This document shows positions 8,911 to 24,213 of a stretch of 64,000 nucleotides of DNA, piece by piece. Source of the DNA: Acidobacteriota bacterium (GTDB lineage: Bacteria > Acidobacteriota > Vicinamibacteria > Vicinamibacterales > SCN-69-37); the NCBI GenBank assembly GCA_009694745.1, contig SHUF01000008.1, positions 1 through 64,000 on the forward strand, given 5' to 3'. Under the pieces are notes generated by a model. The model saw only the letters and a program-made list of their open reading frames with translations, did no database searches and was not told where the DNA came from. Numbering within the stretch: the stretch's first letter is position 1; each line of letters starts with the position of its first letter. A program made the translations under genes and the position numbers.

Positions 8911-10170
8911 TCAGCGCCCGGACAGCGCCTGCTCCAGACCGGCGATGAGCCGATCGGCGTCGGACAGCGTGTTGTAGTGCGCGAATGACGCGCGCACTAC
9001 GCCGTGTCCGGTTGCCAGACCCAGGTCTTCGATCAAGCGCCGCGAGTAGAAGTCTCCGAAGCGAATACCAATGCGGAGGGGATCGATCGCGCGGACGATG
9101 CGCTCCGAGTCAATGCCGTCAACCACGAAACTGATGGTTGGCACACGAACCGAGCGCTCGGAGGACGCGGGTCCGATGGTGCGCACGTCGTGCCGCCCAC
9201 GCAGCCAGGCCAGTAGCCGCTCGGCGAGTCGTGATTCGTGATCCGCGATGGCGTCGAACGCGGCCGCCATGCGTGCGCGGCGGGACGCGCCGGCCGTGGC
9301 TCCAGACCGTTCACCCAACGCCACCAGATAGTCTGGGATGGCCGTGGCTCCGTACGACAGTTCGTAGTTGGGATTCCCCGGCTGGAGTTTTCCCGGGATC
9401 TTGTCCATCGGCACGAAGTGATGCGACAGGTTCGCGAGTTTCAGCAGGCGGTCGTACTTGCCGTACAACACGGCATGGTGTGGGCCAAACACCTTGTAGA
9501 GGCTGAAGACGTAGTAGTCCACGTCCCACTCGCGCACGTCCACAAGACGGTGAGGAGCGAAGGCCACTCCATCGACACACACCGCGGCACCGTGACGATG
9601 CGCGCACGCGGTGACCTCCGCGATGGGAATGAGCTGGCCGAAGATGTTCGACGTCTGCGTGCAGACCACAAGCCTGGTCCGTGGTGTCATCAACAGCTCA
9701 AGGTCAGACGCCTCCAGCGTCATCGTCTCGTGATTGAGATGCCAGCGATGGACGATGATGCCGTGCGCCTCGAGCGCGAGCCACGGTCCGATGTTGGCCT
9801 CGTGATCAATCATCGAGACCACCACTGCGTCGCCCAGCGACAACGCCGACGTGATGGCGCGCACCAGGGTCTGGATCATGACCGTGGACGAGGGGCCGAA
9901 GACGATTTCTTCCGGCCTGGACGCGTTGACGAGTTCAGCCACCGCCAACTGGCCTGCGCACAGACGCTCCGCCGCCAGCGTAGACACTCCGTAACTGGCG
10001 CCAGTCTGAACGCTTGAAGTCAGCAGGTAATCACGAACCCGGTCGGCAACCGTTCCAAGCACCTGCGAACCGCCGGCGTTGTCGAGATACACCCAGGAGT
10101 CTTCATCGTCAGAAAGCGCGGGAAACTGCGAGCGCGCAAAGGCGAGGTCGAGCGGCATCGAGGTTGTCAT
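8911..10170 (-). CDS. Class V aminotransferase (cysteine desulfurase-like, PLP enzyme)
   Basis: The 419-residue product, started at MTTSMPLDLAF, is a fold-type I PLP enzyme of aminotransferase class V. It shows VYLDNAGGSQVLG near the N-terminus, FGPSSTVMIQTLVRA (phosphate-binding region), SMIDHEANIGPW, VCVDGVAFAPHRLVDV with the PLP-binding Asp, and a lysine in VFSLYKVFGPHHAVLYGKYD for the Schiff base. Relatives include SufS/CsdA-type and kynureninase-like enzymes. No catalytic-loop cysteine or iron-sulfur assembly gene was noticed nearby, so cysteine desulfurase activity is uncertain. It follows an NTF2-like gene by 14 bases and is probably co-transcribed with it. The frame is open 24 codons upstream of the chosen start. 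Confidence 0.8.
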   Translation of the reverse strand: MTTSMPLDLAFARSQFPALSDDEDSWVYLDNAGGSQVLGTVADRVRDYLLTSSVQTGASYGVSTLAAERLCAGQLAVAELVNASRPEEIVFGPSSTVMIQTLVRAITSALSLGDAVVVSMIDHEANIGPWLALEAHGIIVHRWHLNHETMTLEASDLELLMTPRTRLVVCTQTSNIFGQLIPIAEVTACAHRHGAAVCVDGVAFAPHRLVDVREWDVDYYVFSLYKVFGPHHAVLYGKYDRLLKLANLSHHFVPMDKIPGKLQPGNPNYELSYGATAIPDYLVALGERSGATAGASRRARMAAAFDAIADHESRLAERLLAWLRGRHDVRTIGPASSERSVRVPTISFVVDGIDSERIVRAIDPLRIGIRFGDFYSRRLIEDLGLATGHGVVRASFAHYNTLSDADRLIAGLEQALSGR

Positions 10171-19905: not shown

Positions 19906-20802
19906 TCACCGCCTCATAACGAACGCTGCCGCGATCTTGATTGCGAGTGAAGACGTGTCCGCGTGCCTCGCGATGGGCCACTCCCGGGCGAGCGGCGGCA
20001 AGACCCGGAGCGAACCGCGTAACACGGTGGTCCAACGAGCGAGTGCCCGCTCGTCACGCGCGCGCCACTCGAAGCCGTAGGCTTCGCGAATCGCCGGTGG
20101 CAGTGATCCAATCGTGAGCAGTTGCATCGCGCGAAATGCCGGCCAGGCCACGTGCCACCTCGGCGGATACAACACGGCCCGGGCGAGCGCTCGGCTGGTG
20201 TCAGTCACGACAATCTGCCCGCCTGCCAGCATCTCGGCTATGTACGCGTCGAGTTGGGCCGAGTCGCGCGGCAGCCATCCCGCCGGCATGCCCATCAGCG
20301 GCTCCATGATGGCGGCCTCCACGCAATATTGATCCCGCTCACGGCGGATCAGAGGGCCGACCAGCTGTTCGTAGGTCAACGGGATCGATTCAAGGAGCGT
20401 GGCATGCACCCAACGCTGCAGGTCGGGGTCGTGCGCCGAGTACGACTCACCGGCCGAGGCATGGACGCATCCATTGACACGATCGTGGATGGTGTTGATC
20501 CTGGCCGCCGTCGCGATCCTCTCTTCCGCGTCGCCGAAGGTCAGTGAGAGCATCGCGCCCACCGTTGAGTGCAGGCGCCGGACGCTGGCGCGCAGGCTGC
20601 CGCGAAAACCGCTGTAGCCGTGGACGCCGGCAGCCACTGATGGATGCGCCAGTTGCAGCAGAATCGCACGGGCCCACCCGGCGACCACCACCACCTCGCG
20701 GTTGATCTTCCACGTCACACTGCCGGGCCCGGCCGCCACATGGCCCGACTGCAGCAGGCGTGCGCGGACGGCTGCGCGATGACGTTCAGTTGCCTCAGTC
20801 AT
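19906..20802 (-). CDS. MpaB-like oxygenase (DUF2236, latex-clearing-protein related)
   Basis: The 298-residue product carries DUF2236 signatures: an N-terminal AAGPGSVTWKINREVVVVAG, LLQLAHPSVAAGVHGYSGFR, RLHSTVGAMLSLTFGDAEE, INTIHDRVNGCV, YSAHDPDLQRWVHATL, and a late MGMPAGWLPRD. The conserved Arg and His residues of these blocks are present. Characterised relatives act on isoprenoids: Lcp cleaves rubber, and fungal MpaB cleaves a farnesyl chain. A heme-dependent oxygenase role is a family inference. The ATG overlaps the stop of the upstream kinase-fold gene by four bases, which makes it the fourth member of a translationally coupled operon whose second gene resembles an isoprenoid synthase. 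Confidence 0.85.
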   Translation of the reverse strand: MTEATERHRAAVRARLLQSGHVAAGPGSVTWKINREVVVVAGWARAILLQLAHPSVAAGVHGYSGFRGSLRASVRRLHSTVGAMLSLTFGDAEERIATAARINTIHDRVNGCVHASAGESYSAHDPDLQRWVHATLLESIPLTYEQLVGPLIRRERDQYCVEAAIMEPLMGMPAGWLPRDSAQLDAYIAEMLAGGQIVVTDTSRALARAVLYPPRWHVAWPAFRAMQLLTIGSLPPAIREAYGFEWRARDERALARWTTVLRGSLRVLPPLAREWPIARHADTSSLAIKIAAAFVMRR

Positions 20803-21587
20803 GACTGGCCCCTCTGGACCGCGGAAACGATCTGCTGGAGTTTTTGCAGTCGCGGCTCAATCTGTTTCATGGACGCCCCGTTGGTTCCCACGTACCAGAG
20901 CAGTCTGGCAACACCGCGCGGCACCAACAATTGGCGACCGAGCGCCTCCAGCACAGCAGGCCGCCGGTATTCCTCGACAAACGCAGTAGCCAATGACAGC
21001 CATCGGTCATCAGGCCACCCAATGGGCTCCAGCAGGACCGCCATCACATCGTCGCACTGACGAAGGGTGGCGGAGACGTCGAATGCGTGGCGGATGTCGA
21101 AGTCGATCAGGGTCGCCCGTCCCTCAGCCACGTCACAGAGGATATTGTCGAGGTGCAGATCACCATGAGACCACCCGGCGCGGTAGTGGGCGCACGTAGT
21201 CTCATGGACTCGCCGCAGTTCGCGGGCGGCAAGCACCAGGGCTGTTCTCACGTCCGGGTGACTCCGCCGAACCATCGTCCTCACACTGATGCCGTCCACT
21301 CTGGGAAGGACCACAGCGGAACTCGACTCAACCCTGGCACCCGGCCGCTCGGGATACAACAGCTGGGCACAATACACTTCCCAGGCCGCCCATTCGTCGG
21401 CCCGAAGATACATGGAGGTGCCGTTATGCGCGAGCGCCATGAATCGGTTCGCGAACCAGATGACGGCCAGTGCGCCAGCCCGGCGCCGCTTCACAAACAC
21501 CGCTGCGCCATCGCGTTCGGTTGCCTGCACGTGATTGACCCGCACCCGATTCATCAGCCGGCCGGCGGCCTGTTGCAGTGAGTCCAT
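20799..21587 (-). CDS. Kinase-fold phosphotransferase, uncharacterised
   Basis: The product, started at MDSLQQAAGRL, is 262 residues. A lobe with AAVFVKRRRAG may supply the ATP-binding lysine. The catalytic loop reads GWSHGDLHLDNILCD, the HGDLHxxN pattern of APH and lipopolysaccharide-kinase-like enzymes. The metal site is TLIDFDIRH, in the place of DFG. The substrate is unknown; family members phosphorylate sugars, lipids or small alcohols. The start overlaps the preceding gene's TGA by one base and its own stop overlaps the DUF2236 start by four, so it is fixed in the four-gene operon. A role on an isoprenoid alcohol is speculation. Confidence 0.65.
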   Translation of the reverse strand: MDSLQQAAGRLMNRVRVNHVQATERDGAAVFVKRRRAGALAVIWFANRFMALAHNGTSMYLRADEWAAWEVYCAQLLYPERPGARVESSSAVVLPRVDGISVRTMVRRSHPDVRTALVLAARELRRVHETTCAHYRAGWSHGDLHLDNILCDVAEGRATLIDFDIRHAFDVSATLRQCDDVMAVLLEPIGWPDDRWLSLATAFVEEYRRPAVLEALGRQLLVPRGVARLLWYVGTNGASMKQIEPRLQKLQQIVSAVQRGQS

Positions 21588-22375
21588 CACCGATGGGCCA
21601 CCTGTCGCGCATCGCGATGGCGCCACCCGGCCACATGAAGGACGAGGGGGGTCACCATCGTGAAGGCATGAAGCGCCACACGCAGCGGGAACACGCCCCG
21701 GCCGGAATGCGCGGACGGCAGGGCGTAATATCGCGCCGCCTCTGCCGTCAACGCCAGGGCCTGCGGAAGCGACCCTGATGCCGTCAGAAAGCTGGGCAGG
21801 CCCGCGGATTCATCCTCTGCGTAGTCCAGCACATCGTCGATGATCTGACACTGCATGAGAATGCGGAAGAGAGTGTCCACCTCGTTGTCGTCCTGCGCCG
21901 CGCGGATATCGCGTTCGCGGCAGTCCGGATTCAAGGCGATTGCGGCGGCTGTGCACAATGCGAGCCGCGCCACGGACTCCCGATACGGGCGTACATCGTC
22001 AAAACACCGGTAATCGCCGCCGATCACAGGACGTGCACTTTCCAGTGCTCGAAGACGGCTGAGGTATTCGCTGAGGCACTCGCCCAGGCCCGCCTCCTCG
22101 AGACAGGTCCGGATCACCAGGCATTCGTCGCTGTGTGAGGCCTTCTGGTCCCAGACTGCATTGGCGCATCCTTCGAAATCCAGGAACATGCCGAGTTCGC
22201 GCACTCTCCTGCGGGACATCGGACGCGAATGGCGCAGCACATGGAGCGTGTCGAGAGCGACAATCCCCAGCACACGCAACGGAGTCCTGGGTGACGCGAG
22301 AAAGAAGAGCGGCAGGCTCCGGAGAAGGCAGCCTGCGGACACCAGCGAGGCGCGCACCGTTCCAGCGTCAGACAT
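21587..22375 (-). CDS. Class I isoprenoid-synthase-like all-alpha protein
   Basis: The 262-residue product is almost all helical. Its clearest feature is MQCQIIDDVLDYAEDESAGL near residue 180-195. This strongly resembles the second Asp-rich motif of trans-isoprenyl diphosphate synthases (Q-x-x-DD-x-x-D-Y). An earlier segment with spaced acids (MFLDFEGCANAVWDQKASHSDE) could stand in for the first motif but is not a clean DDxxD. The start at 22375 lies eight bases inside the metallophosphoesterase gene, and the stop overlaps the kinase-fold gene. It may bind or make an isoprenoid diphosphate. It could instead be a non-catalytic relative; I would not assign a product. Confidence 0.5.
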   Translation of the reverse strand: MSDAGTVRASLVSAGCLLRSLPLFFLASPRTPLRVLGIVALDTLHVLRHSRPMSRRRVRELGMFLDFEGCANAVWDQKASHSDECLVIRTCLEEAGLGECLSEYLSRLRALESARPVIGGDYRCFDDVRPYRESVARLALCTAAAIALNPDCRERDIRAAQDDNEVDTLFRILMQCQIIDDVLDYAEDESAGLPSFLTASGSLPQALALTAEAARYYALPSAHSGRGVFPLRVALHAFTMVTPLVLHVAGWRHRDARQVAHR

Positions 22376-23093
22376 GGCAGAGCACCACTTCGCGCGGACA
22401 CATCCAGCGGATCGGCAGAAGATCACTGACACCACGGCTGACCACGAGCCGGCTCGAACCCCGTTGATGACTCAGGAAGCAATAGGGGTAAAAGAGCGCT
22501 CCGGGAAAAAGACGGTCGCGATACACACCGCCCACGACCTGGAACCCATGCAGATGCCCCGCCAGGACGAGGTCGTATCCTTCGTGCCTGGAAGCCTTCC
22601 AGATGCGCGGGTTGTGTGCGCAGAGCACACGTACGTGCGCCTCAGACGGCGGCGCGCTTTCAGGACCCGCAATCGCGATCACCCGCGAGCCATGCGCTAC
22701 GCGGGCTATACGGTCGTGGATCCACTGCCCTCCGCCACGCAGCACCGCATCCCGGACACGGTCCATGCCGATGCGGCGGTCGTGATTGCCGCCGATCGCC
22801 AGCACCGGAGCCACGGCGCCAAGCCTGCGCACAAGGTCGGCGAGAGGGCCGAGCTCGGACGGACGATCCACAAGGTCACCGCCCAGCAACACCACATCCG
22901 GTCCAGAGCGCTCCGCCGTATCCAGCACTTGCCGGCACAACAGGCTGGTGCGTCTATGCCTGAGATGAATGTCACTGACGTAGAGGAGCCGGCACGCGTC
23001 GGCCCTGGTGGACACGCGCTCCTCGCGAATGTGCAGCGGCTGCTTGAGCCCCACTTCAAGCAGACCGCCGAGCACGGCACTGGTCGTGTTCAT
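22368..23093 (-). CDS. Calcineurin-like metallophosphoesterase (YkuE/LpxH-like)
   Basis: The 241-residue product has the metallophosphoesterase motifs in order: LLYVSDIHLRH (D-x-H), VLLGGDLVDRP (GD), LAIGGNHDRRIG (GNHD), VLCAHNPRIW and LVLAGHLHGFQVVG (GHxH). This class hydrolyses phosphoesters or diphosphates with two metals, and YkuE-like members often act at the membrane. It is the first gene of a four-gene operon with tight overlaps. Removing phosphate from an isoprenoid diphosphate would fit the neighbours, but that is inference. It starts 51 bases downstream of the disrupted winged-helix gene. Confidence 0.85.
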   Translation of the reverse strand: MNTTSAVLGGLLEVGLKQPLHIREERVSTRADACRLLYVSDIHLRHRRTSLLCRQVLDTAERSGPDVVLLGGDLVDRPSELGPLADLVRRLGAVAPVLAIGGNHDRRIGMDRVRDAVLRGGGQWIHDRIARVAHGSRVIAIAGPESAPPSEAHVRVLCAHNPRIWKASRHEGYDLVLAGHLHGFQVVGGVYRDRLFPGALFYPYCFLSHQRGSSRLVVSRGVSDLLPIRWMCPREVVLCHV

Positions 23094-23144: not shown

Positions 23145-24213
23145 TTACGTGAGATGGGAGTGAGATGGTCGTCTGCGGAGGCCGCGGGCGAGTCCGAGGC
23201 CAAATGTGGCGGCTTCGCCGAAGGCGAGAATGGCTCGCGACACCGGGCCCAGATCGGGCTCGCCGATCAGCCTGCCGAGTGGCGCCAGGGTCGCGCGTGA
23301 CCCTTCGACGGCGTCCGCGACCACGTGAATCGTGCCGCCGACAAGAGGTGATCCAGCGAGCGCGAGTGCCAAGCCGGCCAGCCCGCAAAGGAGGCCCATC
23401 AACAGGGCCGAGCGCACTCGGTTGCTCGTCGCGAGGGCGTATCCCGCTCCCGCGGCACCCCCGATCACCACGCCCTCGAGGCCGCCACCAACTTCCACGT
23501 CAGCGCCCACTAGGGCGGCCAGGCCCCATCGGGCCATCCACTGGACCATCATTCCGGCGAGTCCCCCCCAAGTGCGGCACCGGCCACGAGGGCCGCGACA
23601 CGCTGTGACCGTGCGTGGGGTTTGGCGAGTGACAGCCCCGCGCCAACACCGCCGCCCCCGACGGCTCCGCATGCGCCGCCGATCACCGCAAGCACAGGTG
23701 CGATCGCTATGGTGGCAACGCTGCCAGAGGCCGCCGCCAGAATCAGGCCGCCGAGGCCCCCGGCCGCGAGGCCGGCCAGTCCGCCACCGGTGCTCCACCG
23801 CTCCAAAGCCGATCGACGACCCGCCCTTCTCGCAGTGAGCTGTTGCCGGCCACGGTATCGGCCTCGGCAACTACTGCCTCTGTCTGCGGCGCATCGTCCT
23901 CCTCTTCAATCACGTCGAGCACAAATTGGTAGCCGTGGCGCGAGACGGTGCGGATGAAGCGGGGCTCGCTGGAGTCGTCGCCCAACGTGCGGCGGATGGT
24001 GCGGACGGCCTGGCTCAGCGCGCTATCCGAGACGTTTGCATCCGTCCAGACGCGTTCGAAGATCTCGCGACGATGCACCGCCTCATGACGACGTTCGATG
24101 AGCAGGACCAGAAGGTCGAAGTACCTGGGAATCAGCGGCACCTCACGTCCATCGCGGACGAGCAGGCGCCGCTGTGGCGAGAGCGTGAACTCGCTGAAGC
24201 GATATCGAACCAC
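23145..24213 (-). pseudogene. Winged-helix regulator with Gly-rich membrane tail, frame-disrupted
   Basis: A GTG start at 24213 begins an OmpR/CadC-type winged-helix domain (YRFSEFTLSPQRRLLVRDGR to SRHGYQFVLDVIE, residues 1-105) and a linker. The rest is a Gly/Ala-rich, strongly hydrophobic region (GGGLAGLAAGGLGGLILAAA, then GVVIGGAAGAGYALATSN). The parts are in three frames. One switch lies near 23815-23830 and another near 23563-23569, where seven C stand in a row. The intact protein would be about 350 residues, a DNA-binding domain joined to a glycine-zipper-like membrane domain. It follows katG by 10 bases on the same strand. Either decay or two sequencing indels could explain it. Confidence 0.6.

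Follow-up and report, generated by a model that had tools for sequence, protein, structure and literature searches.

Analysis of a 64,000-nucleotide stretch of an Acidobacteriota bacterium genome (contig SHUF01000008.1; hereafter, the window) identified two overlapping genes, one for a metallophosphoesterase (MPE) and one for an orphan all-alpha protein (hereafter, alpha), that recur side by side in a distant member of the phylum. In the window, these are the first two of four minus-strand genes arranged head to tail (19906-23093), the other two encoding a kinase-fold protein and an oxygenase of the MpaB/Lcp family (MpaB). The original prediction, made from the window sequence, held that all four products work on one isoprenoid. 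The explanation we favour, to which we assign a probability of about 0.38, is that MPE and alpha alone make up the functional unit, which would act on a small, hydrophobic phosphate or diphosphate compound, plausibly a prenylated one, with the kinase being an accessory and MpaB independent.

The predicted gene layout was borne out by a check of the open reading frames. The genes start with ATG codons at 23093 (MPE), 22375 (alpha), 21587 (kinase) and 20802 (MpaB) and overlap by 8 bases (22368-22375), one base (21587, within TGATG) and 4 bases (20799-20802, ATGA), respectively; the codon-position GC content of all four is of the coding type and similar to that of the neighbouring genes. The motifs cited in the prediction, namely those of MPE, QIIDDVLDYAED in alpha and HGDLHLDN in the kinase, are all present, and the protein described as a DUF2236-type oxygenase belongs to the MpaB family, given its match to the catalytic domain MpaB_Lcp_cat (PF09995; 177.1 bits, residues 34-262).

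Among 396 genomes of the phylum, a single true homologue of alpha was detected (37-38% identity, BLAST E 5e-40), in G100, a distant Acidobacteriota metagenome-assembled genome (contig L008, WLXD01000006.1, 'Acidobacteria bacterium'); there was none among 100 close relatives, and the 9 genomes searched in the class/order of G100 added nothing. When 84,980 species genomes were scanned using an alignment of the two alpha sequences, the G100 contig stood alone among the matches listed, beyond which further relatives may exist. A search of 297 genomes showed that G100 also encodes an orthologue of MPE (58% identity), and the alpha homologue directly follows it, with an overlap at 9711-9723 when the first GTG is taken as the start. 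The G100 pair is isolated: the next gene is a convergent trypsin-like one, and neither a kinase nor an MpaB gene is present in the 18 kb examined. Because MPE and alpha adjoin and overlap in both genomes that hold them, and stand alone in G100, the pair is the recurring unit, which argues for a joint function. In viral contigs and plasmids, neither alpha nor the kinase was found, and MPE and MpaB are represented merely by distant family members.

MPE is an intact two-metal phosphoesterase of the calcineurin type, of the YaeI/LpxG kind. It matches the Pfam family Metallophos (PF00149, 44.8 bits) and carries the complete set of five metal-binding motifs (DxH at 41, GDxxD at 71, GNHD at 102, H at 158 and GHxH at 178), which together place it among the calcineurin-like metallophosphoesterases; it evolves under purifying selection (dN/dS of about 0.15 against two homologues) and has no N-terminal membrane anchor (maximum KD19 hydropathy 1.27). 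The best NCBIfam relatives are YaeI (PRK11340), with 75.8 bits against an equivalog cut-off of 188, and LpxG, with 42.9 against 350, so MPE is not the equivalog of either. LpxG cleaves the pyrophosphate of UDP-diacylglucosamine, a lipid-linked pyrophosphate (PMC4807358).

For alpha, the original prediction had proposed a resemblance to isoprenyl synthases, and this part of it stands in the second Asp-rich motif (DDxxD) of those enzymes. The corresponding aspartates (D180, D181, D184 and D188) are conserved in the G100 homologue, where the counterpart of QIIDDVLDYAED is QVVDDVFDYEAD. The only NCBIfam matches are two polyprenyl-diphosphate synthases, over the DDxxD stretch (E about 0.05); among PDB profiles, a farnesyl diphosphate synthetase ranks first (E 0.45). 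Compared with 30 prenyl synthases from relatives, the alpha profile reached an hhalign score of 45.8 over 34 columns (E 1.6e-5 for this single comparison), whereas column-shuffled controls (n=150) had a mean of 15.2, a standard deviation of 2.4 and a maximum of 23.5, reversed alpha scored 14.5, and MpaB, a member of an unrelated all-helical family, scored 11.2. We lean towards an isoprenoid link for alpha because its motif scores far above the shuffled, reversed and MpaB controls and because the weak NCBIfam and PDB matches, as well as those of the first of the two structural models described below, are prenyl synthases. The squalene/phytoene synthase family (PF00494) was considered as well and rejected, there being no Pfam match and an hhalign score of 16.3, within the shuffle range.

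Under the favoured explanation, alpha would be a soluble helical partner whose motif QxxDDxxDxxxD, of the kind that binds Mg-diphosphate, most likely binds a ligand that is small, hydrophobic and carries a phosphate or diphosphate, prenyl phosphates being plausible. Alpha and MPE would work jointly on one substrate, one binding or presenting it and the other hydrolysing it; the kinase would be an accessory specific to the window genome, and MpaB a resident gene with its own history. The gene layout, the families of MPE and MpaB, the recurrence of the pair and the separate history of MpaB are established, whereas the joint action, the class of substrate and the roles are what we infer.

Several observations weigh against this explanation. 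Masking the 12 residues of QIIDDVLDYAED reduces the alpha score from 45.8 to 16.7, the chance level, so the rest of the protein lends no support to a prenyl synthase. Neither alpha nor its G100 homologue has any Pfam match at E<=10, that is, alpha falls outside PF00348. The HMM search and structure prediction that had been suggested for the 21587-22375 product yielded a motif signal without a family match. AlphaFold models from the two sequences, with either one first, are of low confidence (pLDDT 44.2 and 51.6), which is too poor to settle the fold, and the structural matches obtained with Foldseek are all non-significant. With the first model, four prenyl synthases came out on top (best E 0.28); with the second, headed by the G100 sequence, the list was mixed, with a few terpene synthases and no prenyl synthase near the top. 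Elsewhere in the window genome, there are three prenyl synthases and two genes of the squalene synthase family, so ordinary enzymes leave no gap for alpha to fill, and no isoprenoid genes lie near the operon. Furthermore, only two alpha sequences are known, and the pair is known from two loci. Finally, a search of the taxonomic order to which the window genome belongs identified in G076, from another family, an MPE that is 73% identical over 145 residues and truncated at the 3' end, followed by a chimeric ABC/peptidase fragment, without alpha; the pair is therefore not obligate, or else the G076 locus has decayed, as it seems to have done, but this could be a contig artefact in an assembly of 940 contigs.

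The first Asp-rich motif, DDx(2-4)D, which is present in 30/30 prenyl synthases of relatives, is missing from alpha, where only a non-conserved DDNEVD occurs at 162; the G100 homologue contains no DDx(2-4)D besides the second motif, and GGK and RRG motifs are absent from alpha. This absence of the first motif makes chain elongation an unlikely activity for alpha, and with the signal confined to one motif and the models poor, we do not claim membership in the prenyl synthases. Alpha may share the fold of isoprenoid synthases, though this is unproven. An alternative to the favoured explanation, in our view only slightly less probable, is that MPE and alpha act jointly on a non-isoprenoid compound, such as a nucleotide, sugar or lipid phosphate, and that DDxxDxxxD is a convergent metal site. 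The narrowness of the likeness, the gaps in the motif set and the missing Pfam match speak for it, as does the fact that YaeI and LpxG, the nearest models of MPE, are not prenyl enzymes; yet the wording and spacing of the motif fit prenyl synthases well above chance, and the weak sequence and structure matches in NCBIfam, PDB and Foldseek lean the same way. A bolder variant of the isoprenoid view, which we consider improbable, would make alpha the founder of a new branch within the class I isoprenoid synthase fold, one with half of the motifs and no longer capable of prenyl transfer; the two co-translated proteins, alpha and MPE, would together dephosphorylate or sense prenyl (di)phosphates.

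The history of the locus bears on whether there is any joint function at all. In G003, a genome of the same genus with an estimated completeness of 100%, an intact winged-helix gene (349 aa) is directly followed by MpaB (72-73% identical to that of the window) and then by a beta-lactamase-like gene, and MPE, alpha and the kinase are absent, a further point in favour of the pair as a unit apart from MpaB. In G004, also a member of the genus, the winged-helix gene and MpaB have between them an unrelated gene (449 aa) that could be assigned to no known family, and in G005 MpaB is lost; the MpaB homologues of G003 and G004 are 72-76% identical to that of the window, and MPE, alpha and kinase are missing from both genomes. 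MpaB is thus a resident neighbour of the winged-helix gene, with a history independent of the other three genes. Relative to the G003 copy, the winged-helix gene of the window has 20 extra bases at ~23.8 kb and lacks one base in a C8 run at ~23.56 kb, the breaks being due either to pseudogenization or to assembly errors. The MpaB open reading frame ends in ~19 foreign residues: ADTSSLAIKIAAAFVMRR matches the C-termini of beta-lactamase-like proteins in G003 (66.7%) and G076, and the tail appears to be a deletion fusion with an otherwise lost beta-lactamase-like gene.

In G076, the row of genes (L109, 10899-14938, minus strand) consists of a winged-helix gene, YjbQ (UPF0047), the truncated MPE, the chimeric ABC-ATPase/M1-peptidase fragment and a beta-lactamase-like gene, and reflects either decay of the locus or an error in the assembly of the contig. 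The winged-helix stretch of the window is slightly closer at the nucleotide level to that of G076, from another family (70.8% identity), than to that of G003, from the same genus (67.7%). Given that MPE occurs in the same synteny in G076, a simple recent insertion of MPE, alpha and kinase into the window genome is not established; ancestral presence with losses and lateral exchange of the locus would fit equally well. The locus is undergoing rearrangement, and the 4-base overlap of kinase and MpaB cannot be taken to mean that selection has long kept the two in one pathway. One could go further and suppose that rearrangement merely put unrelated genes head to tail, and that indels incidentally created the overlaps in which genes three and four take part, in line with the interval between winged-helix gene and MpaB that is empty in G003 and holds an unrelated gene in G004, the loss of MpaB in G005, YjbQ and the truncated MPE in G076, the beta-lactamase tail, the frameshifted winged-helix gene and a kinase unique to the genome. 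We deem this unlikely: it leaves unexplained why MPE and alpha are adjacent and overlapping once more in G100, and the tight overlaps at every junction suggest co-translation.

The kinase narrowly passes the cut-off of PF01636 (APH; 26.3 bits against 23.2) and carries VK at 32-33, HGDLHLDN at 141 and IDFD at 161, so that, with its HGD and DFD-type motifs, it marginally qualifies as an APH-type phosphotransferase; it has no homologues in the other genomes (0 of 297 at E<=1e-6). MpaB residues R76, T80 and H106 lie at the positions of Lcp Arg164, Thr168 and His198 in a motif reading against PMC5522427, making His106 the candidate proximal haem ligand and Arg76 and Thr80 likewise candidates with respect to the b-type haem binding and oxidative C=C cleavage that mark the MpaB/Lcp oxygenases. 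MpaB is found in 13/297 genomes of the phylum, including that of the window; the other 12 lack the remaining three genes, and MPE, alpha and kinase are all absent from the surroundings of MpaB in ten other genomes.

The claim that the four products successively handle one isoprenoid, by diphosphate synthesis or binding, phosphate exchange and oxidative cleavage, finds little support in these comparisons. Overlapping genes are usually co-expressed, which speaks for the claim. The argument from the oxygenase holds as far as fungal MpaB and Lcp cut prenyl chains (PMC5522427, PMC12724181), and is weakened by Nro1 of the same family, which attacks nitrile rubber, a non-isoprenoid polymer (PMC12724181). 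In whole-genome searches of the Acidobacteriota, no other genome contains all four genes, and only MPE and alpha are found together again. The original prediction had named homologous operons that never combine all four as the outcome that would count against it, and such is the outcome here. With the set present in no other genome, MpaB inherited alone in the genus, a kinase unique to the window genome and isoprenoid genes not nearby, a four-gene isoprenoid pathway is mostly not supported by the sequence comparisons and, even allowing for the MpaB-IspH overlap described below, is very improbable.

Table. Features of the four-gene locus and its surroundings in the window
Feature	Coordinates	Strand	Evidence
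MPE, 241 aa, YaeI/LpxG-like, without N-terminal membrane anchor	22368..23093	-	PF00149 44.8 bits; dimetal motifs
Alpha, orphan all-alpha protein, 262 aa, conserved MPE partner	21587..22375	-	no Pfam match; G100 homologue adjoining MPE homologue
QIIDDVLDYAED, second-Asp-rich-like motif, alpha residues 177-188	21812..21847	-	hhalign; masking; G100 conservation
APH/small-molecule-kinase-like protein, 262 aa	20799..21587	-	PF01636 26.3 bits; motifs
MpaB/Lcp-type haem oxygenase, 298 aa, resident gene of the locus	19906..20802	-	PF09995 177 bits; same-genus homologues
Apparent beta-lactamase-like tail, C-terminal ~19 residues of the MpaB open reading frame	19906..19965	-	ADTSSLAIKIAAAFVMRR matches
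Winged-helix (Trans_reg_C) gene, upstream, two frame changes	23169..24213 (or from 23145)	-	alignment with the intact G003 copy

Some neighbouring genes deserve mention in their own right. In G006, of the same genus, a second type of MpaB, with 41% identity, runs into the start of an IspH (LYTB) gene (L047, 966-2629, minus strand), a possible independent link between MpaB and isoprenoids; upstream of it lies a gene of the 449-aa type. Proteins of this type, without Pfam matches, are encoded upstream of MpaB at L045 3723-5072 (plus strand) in G004 and L047 2727-4184 (minus strand) in G006 and are 67% identical to each other. In G100, genes for an AsnC/Lrp-type regulator, an ABC ATPase and a permease-M1 peptidase fusion (L008, 10584-15537, plus strand) diverge from the MPE-alpha pair, and pieces resembling the two transporter genes follow MPE in G076. 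In the window, there were no Rfam matches, the promoter/terminator scan gave no signal exceeding chance, and matches to the defence-system library were limited to weak kinase-fold ones.

If the pair does act on prenyl phosphates, it would give bacteria a new means of recycling or sensing isoprenyl diphosphates, with alpha descending from prenyl synthases by degeneration and serving in a new role. For now, the useful results are negative ones: the overlapping frames of one genome did not signal a pathway that is conserved, and the family assignment of alpha depended entirely on 12 residues that form a striking motif. What remains of interest is that alpha, an orphan family, is paired with MPE more than once.

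Among known systems, the MpaB/Lcp haem oxygenases share the catalytic domain with the MpaB of the window, which differs in having Ser79 at the position of Lcp Lys167 and a foreign tail as its C-terminus; nor is its gene linked to the other three in a conserved way. The YaeI and LpxG models have the full dimetal motif set in common with MPE, which scores far below their equivalog cut-offs. The trans-prenyl diphosphate synthases (PF00348) are all-helical, as alpha is predicted to be, and contain QxxDDxxDxxxD with identical spacing, but alpha, without the Pfam match, the first Asp-rich motif or GGK, resembles them over 12 residues. An analogy to the pair, a functional one only, is found in drimenol synthases: these terpene cyclase-HAD phosphatase proteins involve another phosphatase superfamily and another type of cyclase, but set a precedent for the coupling of an isoprenoid cyclase to a phosphatase (PMC9128629).

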